Origin: Streptomyces sp. NBC_01551
Lineage (GTDB): Bacteria; Actinomycetota; Actinomycetes; Streptomycetales; Streptomycetaceae
Length of the DNA stretch: 64,000 nucleotides
Assembly (NCBI RefSeq): GCF_026339935.1
Contig: NZ_JAPEPX010000001.1
Span: 4,149,501 to 4,213,500 of the forward strand
Reading direction: 5' to 3'
Of this stretch, positions 39,213 to 48,323 are shown piece after piece; within the stretch, counting starts at the first letter, position 1, and each line of letters starts with the position of its first letter. The notes below the pieces were generated by a model, which did no database searches, was not told the origin of the DNA, and saw nothing but the letters and a program-made list of their open reading frames with translations. A program made the position numbers and the translations under genes.

Positions 39213-41267
39213 ATGCCGAACCGCCTCGCGAACGAGACCTCGCCGTATCTGCTCCAGCACGCCGACAATCCGGTCGACTGGTGGCCCTGGTCGCCCGAGG
39301 CGTTCGCGGAGGCACGGGAGCGGGGCGTCCCCGTCCTGCTCAGCGTGGGCTACAGCAGCTGCCACTGGTGCCACGTCATGGCGCACGAGTCCTTCGAGGA
39401 CGAGCCGGCCGCCGCGTACATGAACGAGCACTTCGTCAACATCAAGGTGGACCGCGAAGAGCGACCCGACGTGGACGCGGTCTACATGGAGGCCGTGCAA
39501 GCGGCGACCGGTCAGGGCGGCTGGCCCATGACCGTGTTCCTCACCGCCGACGCCGAGCCCTTCTACTTCGGCACCTACTTCCCGCCCGAGCCCCGGCACG
39601 GGATGCCCTCCTTCACGCAGGTCCTCGAAGGCGTGCGCACCGCCTGGGAGGGCCGCCCCGAGGAGGTCGCGGAGGTCGCGCAGCGGATCACGAGGGACCT
39701 GGCCGGGCGTCAGCTGGACTACGGCAAGGCCGGCACCCCCGGCCCGGAGGAGCTCGCGCGGGCGCTGCTCGGGCTGACCCGCGATTACGACGCCACGCGC
39801 GGCGGATTCGGCGGCGCGCCCAAGTTCCCGCCGTCCATGGTGCTGGAGTTCCTGCTGCGCCACCACGCCCGGACCGGGGCCGAGGGCGCGCTCCAGATGG
39901 CCGCCGACACCTGTGAGGCCATGGCCCGGGGCGGGATCTACGACCAGCTCGGCGGCGGCTTCGCCCGGTACGCGGTCGACCGGGAGTGGGTCGTGCCCCA
40001 CTTCGAGAAGATGCTCTACGACAACGCCCTGCTCTGCCGCGTCTACGCGCACCTGTGGCGGGCCACCGGGTCGGAGATGGCGCGGCGGGTCGCGTTGGAG
40101 ACCGCCGATTTCATGGTGCGGGAACTGCGCACCCGGGAGGGCGGGTTCGCGTCCGCGCTCGATGCGGACAGCGAGGACCCGGAGACCGGGAAGCACGTCG
40201 AGGGGGCGTACTACGCCTGGACGCCCGCCCAGCTGCGCGAGGTGCTCGGGGAGGCGGACGGGGAGCTGGCCGTCGCCTGTTTCGGGGTCACCGAGGAGGG
40301 CACCTTCGAGCACGGCACCTCCGTACTCCAGCTGCCCCAGGACGGGCCGGCGGCGGACGCGGAGCGGATGGCGTCCATCCGGGCGCGGCTGCTCGCGGAG
40401 CGGGACCGGCGGCCCGCGCCCGGGCGGGACGACAAGGTCGTGGCCGCCTGGAACGGGCTGGCCGTCGCGGCGCTCGCGGAGTGCGGGGCGTACTTCGAGC
40501 GCCCGGATCTGATCGAGCGGGCGACCGAGGCGGCGGACCTGCTGGTCCGGGTGCACATGGACGGGCGGGCGCGGCTGGCGCGGACCAGCAAGGACGGCCA
40601 GGCCGGCGCCAACGCCGGGGTGCTGGAGGACTACGGCGACGTCGCCGACGGGTTCCTCGCGCTGGCGGCCGTCACGGGCGAGGGGGTCTGGCTGGAGTTC
40701 GCCGGGTTCCTCGTGGACCTGGTGCTGGACCAGTTCCGGGCCGAGGACGGCTCCCTCTACGACACCGCGCACGACGCGGAGCGGCTCATCCGGCGCCCCC
40801 AGGACCCCACCGACACGGCGGCGCCCTCCGGCTGGACGGCCGCCGCCGGGGCGTTGCTCTCGTACGCCGCGCACACCGGCTCGGAGGCGCACCGTACGGC
40901 GGCCGAGCAGGCGCTCGGGGTGGTGCACGCGCTCGGGCCGCGTGCCCCGCGCTTCATCGGGCACGGGCTGGCGGTGGCGGAGGCGCTGCTGGACGGTCCG
41001 CGCGAGGTGGCGGTCGTCGGCCACCCGGACGACCCGGCGCGGGCGGCGCTGCACCGCACGGCGTTGCTGGGGACGGCTCCTGGGGCGGTTGTGGCGGCCG
41101 GACTGCCGCGTGCGGCGGACGGGAGCGGTGGGGAGTTCCCCCTCCTGGCCGAGCGCACACTCGTACGCGACCTTCCTACGGCGTATGTGTGTCGACATTT
41201 CGTCTGCGCGCGGCCTACGACAGATCCGGTCGAGCTCGCGGATCAGTTGGGTACGGTTCGTCCCTGA
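39213..41267 (+). CDS. Thioredoxin-domain protein of the YyaL/SSP411 (DUF255) family
   Basis: The 684-residue cytoplasmic protein begins with the hallmark [22 protein letters not shown] thioredoxin-like domain (about 20-170) has CHWCH in place of the usual CxxC, then [13 protein letters not shown] and [10 protein letters not shown]. The rest is a six-hairpin (alpha/alpha)6 domain resembling N-acylglucosamine 2-epimerases, with KMLYDNALL and [21 protein letters not shown]. The family is widespread but its reaction is not firmly established. Length and order are complete. No ribosome site is seen; a leaderless start is likely. Confidence 0.92.
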
Positions 41268-41305: not shown

Positions 41306-41326
41306 GCGTTAAGAAACGCGATTTTT
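41306..41326 (+). terminator. AT-rich hairpin with T-run after the thioredoxin-domain gene
   Basis: GCGTT and AACGC pair around AAGA (41306-41319), followed by TTTTT (41322-41326). The stem is short but the T-run is rare in this genome. Confidence 0.45.
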
Positions 41327-41360
41327 ATCCAGTCAGTGTCCCACCGTCACCTTCCCTGCC

Positions 41361-41366
41361 TAGTCT
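41361..41366 (+). promoter_or_regulatory. Possible -10 of the glycan operon
   Basis: TAGTCT is the best -10-like hexamer in the 198-bp upstream region and would give a leader of about 93 nt. No convincing -35 was found. Confidence 0.3.
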
Positions 41367-41465
41367 CGTGGCTTCGGGAGACACCGAGATCGCGCACTGG
41401 GGGGTGCGCGCGTACGGCAATCGGGGGCGGCGGGCCGGGGGGCCCGTGATCCGTCTCCGGGGGGA

Positions 41466-42866
41466 TTGACGATCGCCGCCTGGGGTTGCGGCATGTCTGT
41501 GGGGGACAGTTTGTACACATCTGTGTTCATTTCTGCCGTTTCGCTGGCACTTTTCTGGATGGCCGCGTTCACCCTCTGGTGGCAGATGCACGCGTGGCGC
41601 ACACCCGAGACGCTCGCCTCGACCCGGTTCGACCACCCCGACGGGGAAGGCCGCCTGGCGTTCTCCCTGCTCCTGCCGGCCCGCCACGAACAGGCGGTCC
41701 TGGAGCACACCATCGACCGGCTGCTCGAATCGAGCCACACCGACTACGAGATCATCGTCATCGTCGGCCACGACGACCCCGAGACGGCCGCCGTCGCCGA
41801 GCGCGCCGCCGCCCGGGCACCGCACCGGGTGCGGGTCGTCACCGACCACCACGAGACGAAGAACAAGCCGAAGGCCCTCAACACCGCCCTCCCGCATTGC
41901 CGGGGCGACATCGTCGGCGTCTTCGACGCCGAGGACCAGGTCCACCCCGAGCTGCTCACCCACGTCGACCACGCCTTCCGCGCCACCGGAGCCGACGTGG
42001 TCCAGGGCGGCGTCCAGCTCATCAACTTCCACTCCAGCTGGTACAGCCTGCGCAACTGCCTGGAGTACTTCTTCTGGTTCCGCTCCCGGCTGCACCTGCA
42101 CGCCGAGAAGGGGTTCATCCCGCTCGGCGGCAACACCGTCTTCGTCCGCACCGACGTGCTGCGCGAGGCCGACGGCTGGGACCCGAACTGCCTCGCCGAG
42201 GACTGCGACCTCGGGGTGCGGCTGTCGTCCGTCGGCAAGAAGGTGGTCGTCGCCTACGACTCCGACATGGTCACCCGCGAGGAGACGCCGGGCTCGCTGA
42301 TGAGCCTGCTCAAGCAGCGCACCCGGTGGAACCAGGGCTTCCTACAGGTCTACCGCAAGAAGGACTGGCAGCAGCTGCCCGGCCGCGGCCAGCGCTGGCT
42401 GGCCCGCTACACGCTGATGACGCCGTTCATGCAGGCGGCCTCCGGCGTGATCATCCCGCTGAACTTCGCCATCGCGCTCCTCCTCGACGTCCCCGTCGGG
42501 ATCGCGATCATCACCTTCCTGCCCATGATCACGGCGCTGGTGACCTTCGTCTTCGAGATCGTCGGCCTGCACGACTTCGGCCGCCAGTACGGCCTGCGCG
42601 TGCGGTTCGTCCACTACGTCAAGCTGGTCGTCGGCGGCCCGTTCTACCAGGTGATGCTCGCGGGCGCCGCCATCCGCGCGGTCTGGCGCGAGCAGCGCGG
42701 CCAGAGCGAGTGGGAACTCACCAGCCACACCGGAGCCCACCTCACCCACGCGGAGCCGGCTCCCGCCCTCGCCGGGGCCGCCACCGCCGCCGCCCACACC
42801 CGAGCCGGAGCCGGCGCCACCGCCCTCGCCACCGACACCACGATCCGAGAGGACCGACACCAGTGA
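41466..42866 (+). CDS. Processive family-2 glycosyltransferase (cellulose-synthase-like)
   Basis: This membrane enzyme probably polymerises a surface polysaccharide from a nucleotide sugar. One N-terminal helix (about 18-40) precedes the GT-A domain: FSLLLPARHEQ, DAEDQ (the DxD-type site near residue 157), EDCDLGVRL and the QxxRW motif as KQRTRWNQGFLQ. Four further hydrophobic segments follow (for example MQAASGVIIPLNFAIALLL). The D,D,D,QxxRW set defines processive synthases of the CslA/BcsA/NodC group. The TTG at 41466 follows CCGGGGGGA; ATG at 41493 is the alternative. Its stop overlaps the next gene (GTGA). It heads a four-gene operon that ends in a GlxA-like oxidase. Confidence 0.88.
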   Translation: MTIAAWGCGMSVGDSLYTSVFISAVSLALFWMAAFTLWWQMHAWRTPETLASTRFDHPDGEGRLAFSLLLPARHEQAVLEHTIDRLLESSHTDYEIIVIVGHDDPETAAVAERAAARAPHRVRVVTDHHETKNKPKALNTALPHCRGDIVGVFDAEDQVHPELLTHVDHAFRATGADVVQGGVQLINFHSSWYSLRNCLEYFFWFRSRLHLHAEKGFIPLGGNTVFVRTDVLREADGWDPNCLAEDCDLGVRLSSVGKKVVVAYDSDMVTREETPGSLMSLLKQRTRWNQGFLQVYRKKDWQQLPGRGQRWLARYTLMTPFMQAASGVIIPLNFAIALLLDVPVGIAIITFLPMITALVTFVFEIVGLHDFGRQYGLRVRFVHYVKLVVGGPFYQVMLAGAAIRAVWREQRGQSEWELTSHTGAHLTHAEPAPALAGAATAAAHTRAGAGATALATDTTIREDRHQ

Positions 42867-44530
42867 CCGCCACCCTGCCCACGGCCACTGATCCCCAGTC
42901 CGGTGCGACCGTCAACCTGCTCCCCGTCCGGCGCGCCCCCGGCGGACTCGGCGTCCGTCCGCCCGCCCCGGCCCGCCCGCTCGTGCGCTTCCGCTCCTCC
43001 CGCCCCGACCTGCTGCTGTGCGGCGTCCTGCTGCTCGCGATCGTCCTCGTCCAGGGCTGGAACATCACCAACTTCCCGACCCTGAGCGACGACGAGGGTA
43101 CGTACCTCGCCCAGGCCTGGGCCGTCCAGCAGGGCGACGGCCTCGCCCACTACACGTACTGGTACGACCACCCGCCGCTCGGCTGGATACAGATAGCCGG
43201 CCTCACCTACCTGCCGTCCCTCTTCGTGCCCGAGTCGATGACCGTCGCGCCGATGCGGTTCTCGATGCTCGCCGTCTCCGCCGCGAGCGCCGTGCTGATC
43301 TACGTACTCGCGCGCCGGCTGTGGCTGCCGCGCTGGGCCGCCGGGCTCGCGATGGCGCTGTTCGGGCTCTCGCCGCTCTCCGTCGTCCTCCAGCGGGAGA
43401 TCTTCCTCGACAACCTCGCCGTGATGTGGATGCTGCTGGCCTTCTGCTGGGCCGCGTCCCCGAGCCGGCACCTGTGGCACCTCTTCGCCTCGGGACTGGC
43501 GGCCGCCACCGCCGTCCTGACCAAGGAGACGATGCTGGTGGTGCTCCCGGCGCTGCTGGTGACGATGTGGCGTCACAGTCACCGCGACACCCGGAAGTTC
43601 GCCATCACCGGAGCCGTCACCGCCTGCGCGCTCATCGGCCTGTCGTACCCGCTCTACGCCCTGCTCAACAGCGAGCTGCTGCCCGGCGCCGGACACGTCT
43701 CGCTGATCGACGGCATCACCTACCAGATGAGCCGCCCCGGCTCCGGCTTCATCCTCACCCCCGGCACCGGCTCCCACGGCGTCTTCACCTCCTGGCTCTA
43801 CTACGACACCGTCCTGCCGCTCGGCGGGCTGGCCGGCGCCGTCCTGCTGCTGGTCACGCACCGCTGGTCCGTCACCGCCCGCGCGCTCGCCGGACCCGCG
43901 CTCGCCGCCGTGATCCTCGCCCTCGTGGCGATGCGGCCCTCCGGCTACCTCCCGGCGATGTACGTGATCCAGGCCCTGCCCTTCCTCGCCCTCGTCCTCG
44001 CCGGCGGAGCCGCCAGCGTCACGCACGCCGTGCTGCGCCGCCGCCGGCGGCCCGGGGAGGGCAAGGCGCTCGTCGCCGGCCGCTGGGCGCTGATCGGCCT
44101 CCTCGCCGCGAGCGCCGCGCTGTACGTCCTCCCGCGCTGGTACGAGGGCAACCGCACCGCGCTCACCGTCGACGCCAACGCCCCCTACCGGCAGGCCGCG
44201 GCCTGGCTCGGCAGCGAGGTCGACGACCCGGCCCGCACCCGTGTCCTCGTCGACGACGCGCTCTGGCTGGACGCCGTCCACCACGGCTTCGAGCCCGGCC
44301 CCGGCGCCATCTGGTTCTACAAGGCCGACCTCGACCCGGCCGTCACGCAGACCCTGCCGCGCGGCTGGCGGGACATCGACTACGTCGTCTCCTCGCCCAC
44401 CGTGCGCCGCGACGCGGTGGACCTGCCCAACGTGAAGGCCGCGCTGGAGCACTCGACCGTCGTCGCCGTCTTCGGCACCGGCGAGGACCGCATCGAGATA
44501 CGCCGGACCGACCGCGAGAGTGGGAGCTGA
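42863..44530 (+). CDS. ArnT/PMT-like membrane glycosyltransferase (GT-C fold, family 39/83-like)
   Basis: The 555-residue multi-pass protein transfers a sugar from a polyprenyl-phosphate donor at the outer face of the membrane. The first extracytoplasmic loop has the acidic pair DDEGTYLAQAW, matching the DDE-type catalytic site of GT-C enzymes. WYDHPPLGWIQIAGLTYLP and QREIFLDNLAVMWMLLAF are other family-typical segments. About ten membrane helices can be drawn, followed by a soluble C-terminal domain (about 440-555). The GTG start overlaps the preceding stop codon, and the downstream enzyme could make its polyprenyl-phosphate donor. The acceptor may be the polymer or a protein. Confidence 0.87.
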   Translation: MTATLPTATDPQSGATVNLLPVRRAPGGLGVRPPAPARPLVRFRSSRPDLLLCGVLLLAIVLVQGWNITNFPTLSDDEGTYLAQAWAVQQGDGLAHYTYWYDHPPLGWIQIAGLTYLPSLFVPESMTVAPMRFSMLAVSAASAVLIYVLARRLWLPRWAAGLAMALFGLSPLSVVLQREIFLDNLAVMWMLLAFCWAASPSRHLWHLFASGLAAATAVLTKETMLVVLPALLVTMWRHSHRDTRKFAITGAVTACALIGLSYPLYALLNSELLPGAGHVSLIDGITYQMSRPGSGFILTPGTGSHGVFTSWLYYDTVLPLGGLAGAVLLLVTHRWSVTARALAGPALAAVILALVAMRPSGYLPAMYVIQALPFLALVLAGGAASVTHAVLRRRRRPGEGKALVAGRWALIGLLAASAALYVLPRWYEGNRTALTVDANAPYRQAAAWLGSEVDDPARTRVLVDDALWLDAVHHGFEPGPGAIWFYKADLDPAVTQTLPRGWRDIDYVVSSPTVRRDAVDLPNVKAALEHSTVVAVFGTGEDRIEIRRTDRESGS

Positions 44531-44536
44531 GCCAGC

Positions 44537-45760
44537 GTGAGCGAAGACCTGTGGACCCCGCATGCCCCGGTGGATCCGGAGCTGACCGCTCCGGCCCGGC
44601 TGGGATCGACCGGCCTGGACGCGACGGAGGTTCCCGCCCCGGGCAGCGTCACCCTCATCATCCCCACCTTCAACGAGGCCGCCAACGTGGGGGAGTTGCT
44701 GCGCCGGCTGGCCGGCTCGCTCCCCGCTCACCTGCCCTGCGAGGTGCTGTTCGTCGACGACTCCACCGACGACACCCCGGCCGTCATCGAGAAGGCGGCC
44801 TCCGCGTGCCCCTTCCCGGTCGCGGTCCTGCACCGCGACACCCCCGAGGGCGGCCTCGGCGGAGCCGTCGTCGAGGGGATCCGCCGGGCGGCCGGCGACT
44901 GGATCGTCGTCATGGACGCCGACCTCCAGCACCCGCCCCACCTGGTCCCCGAACTCGTCGGCGAGGGCGAGCGCACCGGCGCCGACCTCGTCGTCGCCTC
45001 CCGCTACATCCCCGGCGGCAGCCGCGCCGGACTCGCCGGGAGCTACCGCGTCGCCGTCTCGCGCGGCGCGACCTGGCTCACCAAGGGGCTCTTCCCGCGC
45101 GCCCTGCGCGGCATCAGCGACCCGATGAGCGGCTTCTTCGCGATGCGCCGCTCCGTCGTCACCGCCGACGCCCTCAAACCCCTCGGCTACAAGATCCTGC
45201 TGGAGCTGGCGGTGCGCTGCCGCCCCGCCGAGGTCGCCGAGGTCCCGTTCGTCTTCCAGGACCGGTACGCGGGCGAGTCCAAGTCCACCGCCCGCGAAGG
45301 GCTGCGCTTCCTGACCCACCTCGCGGCGCTGCGCTCCGCGTCCCCGGTCGCCCGGATGATCGGCTTCGGGCTGATCGGGCTCTCCGGCTTCGTCCCCAAC
45401 CTGGCCGGGCTGTGGCTGCTCACGCACGCCGGGATGCACTACCTGCCGGCCGAGATCGTCGCCAACCAGGCCGGGGTGCTCTGGAACTTCGTCCTCATCG
45501 AGACGCTCCTGTTCCGCGACCGCCGCCGGCACCGCCACTGGGCCGACCGGATCGGCCGCTTCGTGCTGCTCGCCAATGCCGACCTGCTGCTGCGGATCCC
45601 GCTGATCGCGGTGTTCGTCGCCGAGTTCGGCATGGCGGTGCTGCCCGCCACCGCCCTCGCGCTCGTCACCACCTTCGTCCTGCGGTTCGCGGCCACCGAG
45701 GCGCTCGTCTACCTCCCGCGCTCGCCGCGCCGGACGTCACGGCGTACGGCCGGGAGCTGA
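44537..45760 (+). CDS. Polyprenol-phosphate glycosyltransferase (DPM1-like) fused to a GtrA membrane domain
   Basis: The GT-A half (about 38-260) loads a sugar onto polyprenyl phosphate: LIIPTFNEAANVGELL, VDDSTDDTPAV, DADLQHPPHLVPEL and DPMSGFFAMRRSVV are the dolichol-phosphate-mannose-synthase signatures. The C-terminal 130 residues form a GtrA-like four-helix domain (ARMIGFGLIGLSGFVPN, FVLIETLLFRDRR), which is thought to flip the product across the membrane. This fusion suits a supplier for the GT-C enzyme encoded just upstream (6-bp gap). The start is GTG at 44537; the preceding GGGAG serves as its ribosome site. Confidence 0.9.
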   Translation: MSEDLWTPHAPVDPELTAPARLGSTGLDATEVPAPGSVTLIIPTFNEAANVGELLRRLAGSLPAHLPCEVLFVDDSTDDTPAVIEKAASACPFPVAVLHRDTPEGGLGGAVVEGIRRAAGDWIVVMDADLQHPPHLVPELVGEGERTGADLVVASRYIPGGSRAGLAGSYRVAVSRGATWLTKGLFPRALRGISDPMSGFFAMRRSVVTADALKPLGYKILLELAVRCRPAEVAEVPFVFQDRYAGESKSTAREGLRFLTHLAALRSASPVARMIGFGLIGLSGFVPNLAGLWLLTHAGMHYLPAEIVANQAGVLWNFVLIETLLFRDRRRHRHWADRIGRFVLLANADLLLRIPLIAVFVAEFGMAVLPATALALVTTFVLRFAATEALVYLPRSPRRTSRRTAGS

Positions 45761-45798
45761 ACCCGGGCCGTACCGGCACCACAGAAGGGAACATGTCC

Positions 45799-48228
45799 AT
45801 GCGCCTGAACGAACGGCGACCGGCGGGGCGGCGGGCCGCCCTGCTGGCCGTCGGGGCGATGACCGCGGGCCTGCTGCTCACCGCACCGCAGCAGGCCACG
45901 GCCGGACCGCCCAATCTGCTCAGCAACCCCGGCTTCGAGACCGCCGGCGCGGCCGGCTCCGACATGCCGTCCTGCTGGTCCAAATCCGGCTGGGGCGACA
46001 ACGACTTCACCTTCGCCACCGTCGCCGACGCCCACACCGGCACCAAGGCCATGAAGGTCTCGCTGACGCGCCGCGTCGACGGCGACCGCAAGGCCCTCGT
46101 CACCGAGAACACCGCCTGCGCGCCGACCGTGGTGCCGGGCAAGCAGTACGACCTGTCCGCCTGGTACAAGTCGAACACCCCGGACGTGTCGGTGACCGTC
46201 TTCCGCCACGACACCGCGGCGGGCTGGCAGTACTGGACCGACCTGCAGAACCCGCCGGTCAGCGCGGCCTGGGCGCGCACGGAGGTCCGTACGCCCGCCG
46301 TGCCGCCCAACACCGACAAGATCGCGTGGGGGCTGTCGGTCTACGGCGTGGGAACGCTCACCACCGACGACTACGCGCTGGAGGAGGTCGGGGCGGTTCC
46401 GCCGCAGCCCGGCTGCACCGGCACGCCACAGGAGTGCGCCACGGGCAAGTGGGAGGTGATCCCCGCCAAGAACCCGGTGCGCTCGATGCACGCCGTCGTG
46501 CTCAAGAACGGCAAGGTGCTGCTGATCGCCGGCTCGGGCAACGACATCGCCCAGTTCAACGCGGGCACCTTCACCTCCGCCGTGTACGACCCGGCGAACG
46601 GCTCGTTCAAGACGATCCCGACGCCCGTCGACATGTTCTGCTCGGGCCACGTGCAGCTGGCCGACGGCCGGGTGCTCGTGATGAGCGGCAACAAGGGCTA
46701 TCCGTCCGCCGACGGGAAGATCGGCTACCAGGGCCTGAAGGACAGTTACGTCTTCGACCCGGCGACCGAGAAGTACACCAGGACGAACGACATGAACGGC
46801 GGGCACTGGTACCCGTCCGCGACGGTCCTCGGCAACGGCGACGTGATCTCCTTCGGCGGCCTGAAGGAGGACTCGACCGGCAATGTGACCGCGGAGAAGT
46901 TCTCGGCGGCGCAGGGCAAGTGGCTGCCGATGAACGAGGTCAACCAGACCTGGTCGTACTGGGGCCTGTACCCCTCGATGATCCTGATGCAGGACGGCCG
47001 GCTGTTCTACTCGGGCAGCCACACCTTCGGCAACGGGACGCAGGGCAGCGGCGCGTCGATCTACGACTACGGCGCCAACACCATCACGGACGTGCCCGGG
47101 CTGCGCAAGAAGGACGAGCGCGACGAGTCCGCCAGCGTGCTGCTGCCCCCGGCACAGGACCAGCGGGTCCTGACCATCGGCGGCGGCAACAACGAGACCA
47201 ACCCGGCGGCGAACCGGCTCACCGAGCTGATCGACCTGAAGGCGCCCAGCCCCGCCTACACCGCCGGACCCGACCTCCCGCAGGGCCTGGTCGACGTCGG
47301 CGGCGTCAAGCGGCCGCAGACCGGCGCCGAGGGCAAGATGTACGTGTCCGCCGTCCTGCTCCCGGACGGCAAGGTGCTGGAGACCGGCGGCGGGCTGCAC
47401 GACCGGGCCGACCCGGTGTACGAGGCCTCGTTCTTCGACCCGGTGACCAACACGTACAAGGCCGGGCTGCCGGCGGACCCGATCCCGCGGACGTACCACT
47501 CGGGCGCGTTCCTGCTGCCCGACGGCCGGGTCATGACGGTCGGCGACAACCCGGGCAACGGCACGTACAACCACAACGTGTCGATCTACACCCCGCCGTA
47601 CCTGTTCAAGGGCGCCCGCCCGAAGCTCACCTCGGTGATCGACACGGAGTGGGTCTACGGAGACACCCAGCGGATCACCGTCGACCGCCCGATCGTCAAG
47701 GCGGAGCTGATCCGGCCGGCGGCGGTCACGCACTCCTCGGACCCGAACCAGCGGTTCGTGGACCTTCCGATGACGGTCGTCAACAACACCACCATCGACC
47801 TCAACGTCACCAGCAACCCCAACCTGGCCCCGCCCGGCTGGTACATGCTCTTCGGCGTCGACGCGAACGGCATCCCGTCCGTCGCGACCTGGGTCCACCT
47901 CGGCGGGCCGGCGGCGCTGGCGAAGACCGCCGCCGGCGGCGAGCAGCCCTCGCCGCACGTCCACGACTTCGCGGACGCCCTGAAGGCGGCCCCGAAGACC
48001 AACCCGGCGAAGCGGGACTCCGTGCCCGTCGCGCCCAGCGTGGCCGGCTGCGACCGCCACTACGGCTCGGTCAACCTCTGCGTCCCGACGAACTTCCCGG
48101 CGGAGGTGAAGAACACGACCAGGGCCCGCTGCGACTGGCTGGCCTCCCACAAGTACCCGAAGCGCATGAAGGTCAACGGAAGCGACCCGCTGCGCCTCGA
48201 CCCGGACCGCGACGGGTACGCCTGCTGA
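45799..48228 (+). CDS. Secreted galactose-oxidase-like copper-radical oxidase with CBM-like and Excalibur domains
   Basis: The 809-residue exported protein has a signal peptide (about 1-36), a galactose-binding-like domain (about 38-195, NLLSNPGFETAG) and a seven-bladed Kelch oxidase domain with a DUF1929 C-terminal part. By comparison with fungal galactose oxidase and GlxA, the radical site is intact: Cys281 (DMFCSG) and Tyr338 (HWYPSAT) form the thioether cofactor, Trp337 is next to it, Tyr566 and His567 (RTYHSG) and His645 (VTHSSD) bind copper. An Excalibur motif (DPDRDGYAC, 801-809) closes the protein, with paired cysteines. The ATG at 45799 was chosen because AAGGGA lies 8 bp upstream; ATG at 45793 is too close. 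It is the last gene of the glycan operon. Confidence 0.9.
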   Translation: MRLNERRPAGRRAALLAVGAMTAGLLLTAPQQATAGPPNLLSNPGFETAGAAGSDMPSCWSKSGWGDNDFTFATVADAHTGTKAMKVSLTRRVDGDRKALVTENTACAPTVVPGKQYDLSAWYKSNTPDVSVTVFRHDTAAGWQYWTDLQNPPVSAAWARTEVRTPAVPPNTDKIAWGLSVYGVGTLTTDDYALEEVGAVPPQPGCTGTPQECATGKWEVIPAKNPVRSMHAVVLKNGKVLLIAGSGNDIAQFNAGTFTSAVYDPANGSFKTIPTPVDMFCSGHVQLADGRVLVMSGNKGYPSADGKIGYQGLKDSYVFDPATEKYTRTNDMNGGHWYPSATVLGNGDVISFGGLKEDSTGNVTAEKFSAAQGKWLPMNEVNQTWSYWGLYPSMILMQDGRLFYSGSHTFGNGTQGSGASIYDYGANTITDVPGLRKKDERDESASVLLPPAQDQRVLTIGGGNNETNPAANRLTELIDLKAPSPAYTAGPDLPQGLVDVGGVKRPQTGAEGKMYVSAVLLPDGKVLETGGGLHDRADPVYEASFFDPVTNTYKAGLPADPIPRTYHSGAFLLPDGRVMTVGDNPGNGTYNHNVSIYTPPYLFKGARPKLTSVIDTEWVYGDTQRITVDRPIVKAELIRPAAVTHSSDPNQRFVDLPMTVVNNTTIDLNVTSNPNLAPPGWYMLFGVDANGIPSVATWVHLGGPAALAKTAAGGEQPSPHVHDFADALKAAPKTNPAKRDSVPVAPSVAGCDRHYGSVNLCVPTNFPAEVKNTTRARCDWLASHKYPKRMKVNGSDPLRLDPDRDGYAC

Positions 48229-48258
48229 CGGGCGTACGCACCTGACGGCCGTCGCAGG

Positions 48259-48301
48259 ACGGTGCCCCGGCGGTGGGCGTCCCCCACCGCCGGGGCACCG
48301 T
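48259..48301. terminator. Bidirectional terminator after the glycan operon
   Basis: A perfect 19-bp stem (48259-48277 with 48283-48301) with a 5-nt loop lies between the oxidase gene and the convergent hemolysin III gene. Confidence 0.9.
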
Positions 48302-48323
48302 CATGCCCGGCCGCCGTCGGCCG

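Follow-up and report, generated by a model that had tools for sequence, protein, structure and literature searches.

A candidate surface-glycan operon of Streptomyces linking a GT2 synthase and a GT-C enzyme to a predicted radical copper oxidase

Introduction

Two extracellular glycans, made by CslA and by MatAB, have been named as the characterised key elements of Streptomyces pellets (PMC7300013; this and the other PMC articles are cited here and below for part of their text). The cslA-glxA(-cslZ) loci encode a membrane synthase of family GT2 with a secreted or surface-bound radical copper oxidase (PMC11022532, PMC3543389), a combination that they have in common with the locus described here. 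In the part cited of Liman 2013 (PMC3543389), SCO2837 is given as the only putative galactose oxidase of S. coelicolor, and extra cslA-glxA copies are reported in three species. In S. lividans, GlxA is matured by the products of the sco-PCuAC-copCD-dtpA operon (PMC4736821). Other relevant machines are the multi-component transmembrane glycosylation systems, in which a GT-A polyprenol-phosphate glycosyltransferase, GtrA and a GT-C enzyme decorate wall polymers from the outside (PMC8035078). Here, we analyse four adjacent genes, G1 to G4, in a stretch of 64,000 nt of contig NZ_JAPEPX010000001.1 of Streptomyces sp. NBC_01551 (the window, in which all coordinates are given). They encode a membrane GT2 synthase, a GT-C enzyme, a polyprenol-phosphate glycosyltransferase and a putative radical copper oxidase.

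A four-gene unit with operon architecture

Our preferred reading, to which we give a probability of about 0.45, is that G1 to G4 form a dedicated cell-surface glycan system in one transcription unit, with synthesis by G1, loading by G3, transfer by G2 and oxidation by G4. It is based on the overlapping genes, their joint presence and absence, a linkage kept through inversion, relocation and reordering, and the invariant copper-radical residues of G4; also on the fold matches of G1 and G2, the retained operon for GlxA maturation, and a GH5 cellulase near a paralogous gene pair (see below).

The four open reading frames were confirmed on the forward strand (Table 1) and make up a unit with operon architecture, which would be co-transcribed. 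The original prediction had the genes abut or overlap. This is accurate for G1 and G2, which overlap by 4 bp, and loose for G3 and G4, which are 32 nt apart; the gap between G2 and G3 is 6 nt. The start of G1 is uncertain, as its reading frame is open from TTG 41466 (the start given in that prediction) or from ATG 41493. We preferred the ATG because 49 of the 78 alignments of G1 to the named loci begin there (residue 10) or later, against 29 that begin before it. These named loci are the best 80, retrieved by G2, in a search where 511 of 525 pattern hits encode a relative.

The architecture is conserved. All four gene models are intact in 83 loci, of which 76 have the order G1-G2-G3-G4 on one strand, two have G4-G1-G2-G3, and five have mixed strands. 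Since some loci are represented more than once (the same genome with and without a name, and the locus of the window itself), distinct proteins number 126 of 145 for G1, 149 of 167 for G2, 116 of 138 for G3 and 118 of 133 for G4. In the 69 distinct loci with the order of the window, with start codons picked by script as the nearest to the homologous start, the G1/G2 overlap is exactly 4 bp in 65. G2 and G3 share a 4-bp overlap in 50 and are within 6 nt in all 69, and G3 and G4 are at most 60 nt apart in 61.

Table 1. Features of the G1-G4 locus, as positions in the window.
Feature	Position	Strand	Evidence
Conserved non-coding block TTCAC ... TAnTCTC in the yyaL-G1 interval	41346..41367	+	Alignment of 79 upstream regions
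G1, membrane GT2 glycan synthase	41493..42866	+	Pfam, motifs, structure model, fold matches
G2, GT-C (PMT/ArnT-like) glycosyltransferase, start GTG	42863..44530	+	Pfam, structure model, Foldseek, VIA-align
G3, DPMS-like GT2 polyprenol-phosphate glycosyltransferase with GtrA, start GTG	44537..45760	+	Pfam, PfDPMS match
G4, AA5-type radical copper oxidase, predicted secreted, start ATG	45793..48228	+	Pfam, GlxA alignment
G4 N-terminal CBM4_9-like domain, weak, absent from GlxA	45913..46230	+	19.1 bits, below cut-off 25.9
G4 galactose-oxidase-type E-set domain	47617..47898	+	PF09118
G4 C-terminal Cys-containing domain, ends LDxDxDGxAC, absent from GlxA	48022..48225	+	Alignment, no Pfam match
Perfect 20-bp hairpin between G4 and hlyIII	48258..48302	+	Folding, z = -6.0

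Predicted functions of the four proteins

The enzyme families first named for the four genes all hold in Pfam, and the catalytic residues are intact in the alignments of each protein. G1 matches PF13641 (145 bits) and also PF13506/GT21. Its DAED, ED and QRTRW motifs are invariant in 146 of 146 aligned sequences (126 distinct among 145 loci) and correspond to the DxD, ED and QxxRW set of processive GT2 synthases such as BcsA and hyaluronan synthase. G2 matches PF02366 (41.3 bits, cut-off 22.7) and has a catalytic-type DE pair at residues 77-78, kept in all but two of 168 aligned sequences, which are gapped there. G3 combines PF00535 (107 bits; match to PfDPMS, 5mlz, E = 8e-61) with a fused C-terminal GtrA domain (PF04138, 57.7 bits, cut-off 26.1; about 45365-45709), and no residue of its DxDxQH motif is conserved in fewer than 137 of 139 aligned sequences.

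G4 is a predicted AA5-type radical copper oxidase, by its residues and domains. Matches to PF09118 (87.5 bits, cut-off 25) and PF07250 (38.2 bits, cut-off 37.5) indicate a Kelch propeller followed by an E-set domain. Residues C283, W339, Y340, Y568, H569 and H647 are invariant in 134 of 134 aligned sequences and align with those of GlxA; following the literature on galactose oxidase and GlxA, we take them to be the Cys-Tyr cofactor pair, the second Tyr, the two His and the stacking Trp. A hydrophobic segment at residues 15-33 was read by eye as a signal peptide. At the other end, the DxDxDGxAC motif is presumably calcium-loop-like.

In the pathway that we propose, G1 would work at the inner face of the membrane, using a nucleotide sugar to polymerise or extend a glycan. 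G3 would load a second sugar onto polyprenyl phosphate, its GtrA domain helping to carry the sugar to the outer face, and G2 would transfer this sugar to the emerging product of G1, its putative acceptor. The secreted G4 would then act on the glycan by oxidising its primary hydroxyls (C6), and the resulting aldehydes could serve to cross-link or anchor the glycan. We infer the substrates and sugars of the four enzymes, the oxidation of the polymer by G4 and the role of that oxidation.

G1, G2 and G4 occur together or not at all in nearly all genomes

The original prediction called for conserved co-occurrence of the families, and the homologues are indeed not scattered. In 199 Streptomyces genomes, strong matches to G1, strong matches to G2, and G4 are each present in 70. 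All three are found in 69 genomes, none in 128 and only some in two (Fisher p ~1e-51, a value that ignores phylogeny). The tally of 70 for each excludes genomes with only weak paralogues (seven for G1; the same seven and G198 for G2). Both partial genomes are highly fragmented: G073 (1140 contigs) has G1 and G2 on separate contigs and no G4, and G152 (1040 contigs) has G4 and a fragment of G2 in one stretch (L118). The best 80 named loci give the same picture, with G1 in 78, G3 in 78 and G4 in 76. The misses of G1 (L016, L042) and of G4 (L019, L020, L031, L034) are at contig ends, where G3 is also partial in L019, L020 and L031, and the misses of G3 (L035, L052) are real absences. It is thus extremely improbable that the four genes are mere neighbours with no shared function: the overlaps, the co-occurrence and the linkage retained after rearrangement contradict this for G1, G2 and G4, while it is still arguable for G3.

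Conservation does not appear to reach deep into the actinobacteria, an idea that we considered and rejected. A draw of 346 genomes across the phylum gave 14 non-Streptomyces genomes with G4-like matches (E<=1e-30), and 16 loci (L168-L183) were retrieved from 13 of them (G207 was left out, its match covering the N-terminal part only). No G1 or G2 was found beside the oxidase in these 16 loci at E<=1e-4, bar a weak G1 match in L177, which falls on a CslA-like gene about 3 kb from the oxidase; in six of the 16 loci, which span less than 10 kb, the absence is weak evidence. A G3-like gene occurs in L182 and, weakly, in L177. The four-gene combination therefore looks like an assembly of the Streptomycetaceae, and not more.

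The operon is distinct from cslA-glxA

The locus had been read as a cslA-glxA pair expanded by two genes, with the caveat that it might be the ordinary cslA-glxA locus misread. Neither fits the comparisons. G1 is 22% identical to CslA (301 residues, 45 bits), and G4 is 31% identical to GlxA and reaches 403 bits against the GlxA model of NCBIfam (NF052501), whose cut-off is 800. G4 also lacks an insert of ~110 residues present in GlxA and has N- and C-terminal domains of its own. Moreover, closer duplicates of cslA-glxA exist as separate loci: L126 and L127 hold second copies with their own CslA (CslA2) and, in L126, a GH6 neighbour, and these GlxA2-type copies score about 1065 bits against the GlxA model. 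Hence, even if the pairing of a GT2 synthase with a copper-radical oxidase is the same and extra copies of the pair have been reported, we regard an expanded or duplicated cslA-glxA pair for hyphal-tip cellulose, with two extra genes, as very improbable. Its variant in which the operon is a recent duplicate was rejected on account of L126 and L127. Our first guess for the extra copies of Liman 2013 was the G1-G4 operon. The GlxA2-type loci are a better fit, and L126/L127 are probably the extra copy reported there. We no longer use a PilZ domain to tell CslA from G1, as Pfam finds none in CslA either.

The two systems often coexist. GlxA is above the curated cut-off in 157 of the 199 Streptomyces genomes, and 59 of the 70 genomes with G4 have a stronger match to the GlxA model elsewhere, so that G1-G4 and cslA-glxA are separate systems. 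In the 11 others (G000, G016, G020, G030, G038, G039, G042, G054, G111, G157, G173), the best match is only at the level of G4 (1e-85 to 1e-89). The genome of the window (98.6% complete, 28 contigs, so that an assembly gap is possible) has no canonical GlxA, its sole E-set oxidase being G4, and no CslA, the best match being G1 at 20 bits. It nevertheless keeps the sco-PCuAC-copCD-dtpA operon; sco, the PCuAC chaperone gene, copCD and dtpA are found at L245 (G000:C1:3134000-3147000), in a genome without glxA.

Rearranged loci and an exchangeable partner

REARRANGEMENT provided a test of the coupling: gene arrangement differs between loci and the linkage stays. Besides the order of the window (type A, G1>G2>G3>G4), we found G1>G2>G4 without G3 (type B) and G4>G1>G2>G3 (type D). 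A type-B locus (L117) lies away from yyaL and PEPCK, and has overlaps of 4 bp at both its G1/G2 and its G2/G4 junction. In type C, found at the yyaL/hlyIII/PEPCK site, G3-G1 is inverted and divergent from G2-G4; its nine loci, of which L108 and L241 lack G3, span two genera but group as a single clade in the trees of G1, G2 and G4 (support 1.0 in each). The 22 loci outside Streptomyces, i.e., all those found in a draw of 200 genomes of the family (E<=1e-60), are divided between types A, C and D (two each) and types B and E (seven each), with two more counted as neither.

Type E (L228-L232, L234, L235) has a different partner. In all seven loci, a secreted-looking protein of ~1,350 residues is encoded 5' of G1-G2 and a second GT-C enzyme 3'. 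The three copies of the large protein that were scanned have choice-of-anchor/ASH-type repeats far above cut-off; by total score, all three exceed the cut-off of the Lectin_leg-like model PF03388, two pass a BamB-like propeller model and none the L-type lectin model, and a sequence search of the PDB with this lectin-like protein found nothing. No full G4 was found in the seven type-E genomes, where the best matches reach 232 bits; nine genomes with linked G4 score at least 966 bits in the same search. One type-E genome encodes a stretch of 156 residues (G721:C3:7745398-7745865) that is 69% identical to residues 557-712 of G4 and is perhaps the remnant of a lost G4.

A third arrangement involves a paralogous pair, G1'-G2' (about 41% and 30% identical to G1 and G2), in nine Streptomyces genomes (L188-L197; G198, a fragment at a contig end, was excluded). 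All nine pairs have nearby an Ig-like membrane protein, for which the PDB sequence search gave only a weak Ig match, and, within about 5 kb, a GH5 cellulase, confirmed by Pfam in four copies. A subtilase gene is also nearby. The retrieved stretches hold no copper oxidase near the pair. By likeness to the GH6 gene beside cslA-glxA, the GH5 gene hints at a beta-glucan-like product of G1'-G2'. Two of the nine genomes (G097, G177) carry both systems.

As judged from these comparisons of sequences and gene neighbourhoods, G1-G2 is the conserved core and its outer-face partner is exchangeable. A broader proposal, which we advance tentatively and which is doubtful as a whole, is that a modular surface-glycan machine of the Streptomycetaceae is built around G1-G2. 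Its effector would be either the copper-radical oxidase, or the ~1,350-residue propeller/choice-of-anchor/legume-lectin-like protein with a second GT-C enzyme, or, for the paralogues, the Ig-like protein with GH5; and in lineages lacking cslA-glxA, such as the strain of the window, the oxidase form would have taken over the oxidised surface glycan, with the Sco/DtpA copper pathway serving it as its client.

Alternative functions and the role of G3

Several observations weigh against a dedicated system for a surface glycan. The predicted structure of G2 has the GT-C fold (best match ArnT by Foldseek; PMT, OST and ArnT by VIA-align; by sequence, the PDB gave no match to G2) and is no less similar to protein O-mannosyltransferases than to ArnT, so that a protein acceptor is possible. 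G2 could then be an outer-face protein O-glycosyltransferase fed by G3, with G1 extending the glycan or a lipid precursor and G4 oxidising the sugar of a glycoprotein. This account of protein glycosylation takes up the resemblance of G2 to PMT, but G1 retains the complete QxxRW synthase motif set and shows the highest identities of the set in searches of the genus, and the paralogues G1'-G2' sit near a cellulase; we find it rather unlikely.

G1 itself is the second difficulty. Fold searches with its structure model gave PcManGT, BcsA and hyaluronan synthase, aligned over 337-384 residues; the top match is PcManGT, titled a mannosyltransferase, with BcsA and hyaluronan synthase tied. The transmembrane helices are few (three by hydropathy, about four in our own reading of the model). 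Given these helices and the three-way tie, processivity is not established, and G1 is at most a putative processive synthase. If it were non-processive, its product could be a short or lipid-linked saccharide, to be extended by G2 at the outer face and oxidised by G4. The profile search, led by PcManGT and including ceramide glucosyltransferase (E 4e-5), fits such assembly of a glycolipid or oligosaccharide, as does the PF13506/GT21 match, which CslA has too. Yet BcsA and hyaluronan synthase tie with PcManGT over more residues, and cellulose synthase (E 4e-12) outscores ceramide glucosyltransferase, which makes this alternative unlikely in our view.

The remaining points concern the make-up of the surface-glycan system. 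G1-G2 occurs without G4 in nine of the 22 non-Streptomyces loci, and oxidation is therefore not intrinsic to the pathway. Loss of DtpA also lowers the activity of cytochrome oxidase (PMC4736821), which makes the retention of the sco-PCuAC-copCD-dtpA operon weak evidence. Finally, a linked G3 is missing in 14 of the 56 tips of the G2 tree (12 genomes, two of them counted twice; L146, with a partial match, was counted as having G3), with six changes by parsimony. We searched for G3 in 22 genomes, i.e., five controls with G3 and 17 without a linked copy, and found none elsewhere in 16 of the 17 (E<=1e-30), the only copy being in G634. G3, the loading gene as first proposed, is thus accessory and not essential to the set. 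In loci that lack it, either G2 must use another polyprenol-phosphate sugar, which the cell would supply, or G3 is only a booster. Overall, the four-gene unit, the families and their co-occurrence stand, whereas the expanded cslA-glxA pair and an essential G3 do not.

Flanking regions

Upstream of G1, yyaL ends at 41267, and downstream, hlyIII (HlyIII by Pfam) is convergent with G4. The conserved block in the yyaL-G1 interval is a possible promoter region; the promoter scan found no sigma-70 consensus upstream of G1. The hairpin is probably a terminator shared by G4 and hlyIII, although a simple terminator scan, which demands a T-run, did not pick it up. An Rfam scan of the window gave no match at gathering scores. 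Between yyaL and the conserved block, a weak terminator-like 5-bp stem with a T-run can form in the window at 41306-41330; its GAAAC and TTT parts are conserved in the 79-locus alignment. Four loci (L108, L109, L144, L145), unlike the window, have a gene of ~240 codons between G4 and hlyIII, accompanied in three of them by an MFS-like gene (named by eye).

Significance

The operon would add a further system to those of CslA and MatAB in about a third of the sampled Streptomyces (70/199). As originally predicted, it appears undescribed: we found no description of it by title or start of abstract in the open-licence PMC literature. The exchange of the outer-face partner around a conserved GT2/GT-C core is a more interesting point than the operon itself. 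The operon itself opens a testable route to three questions: the nature of the surface glycan that such strains make, the generality of copper-radical oxidation as a strategy for bacterial glycans, and the reason for encoding an outer-face glycosyltransferase together with a synthase. Clumping of the mycelium is also relevant to industrial fermentation.

Comparison with known systems

CslA, of the SCO2836-2837 system, is about 200 residues longer than G1, and both CslA and CslA2 match PF03552 (Cellulose_synt), which G1 does not. GlxA and G4 both keep the Cys-Tyr, Tyr, His, His, Trp set. The cslA-glxA loci L124-L127 contain no match to G2 or G3. GH6 adjoins glxA in L124 and L126 (Pfam), whereas the operon is flanked by yyaL and HlyIII, with no cslZ-type endoglucanase. 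The GlxA2-type loci (L126, L127) share the genus and the logic of a synthase plus an outer-face protein, with a CslA2 of their own that differs from G1. The G1'-G2'-Ig-GH5 loci share both as well, without the copper oxidase in the retrieved stretches.

In their parts, G2 and G3 match the multi-component transmembrane glycosylation systems: by their predicted families, the operon has the GT-A-fold polyprenol-phosphate glycosyltransferase, the GtrA-type flippase and the GT-C transferase of that kit. It differs from the systems in the part cited of PMC8035078 by the presence of a GT2 synthase and a copper oxidase next to the kit, by the fusion of GtrA to the GT-A enzyme, and by the dispensability of this fused gene, whose loss can leave the other genes in place. 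Similarly, G4 has the Kelch propeller, the E-set domain and all the copper-radical ligands of fungal galactose oxidase and bacterial AA5 oxidases (1gof, 4unm), and is set apart from them by its CBM4_9-like N-terminus, its Cys-containing C-terminus and its place inside an operon for glycan synthesis.

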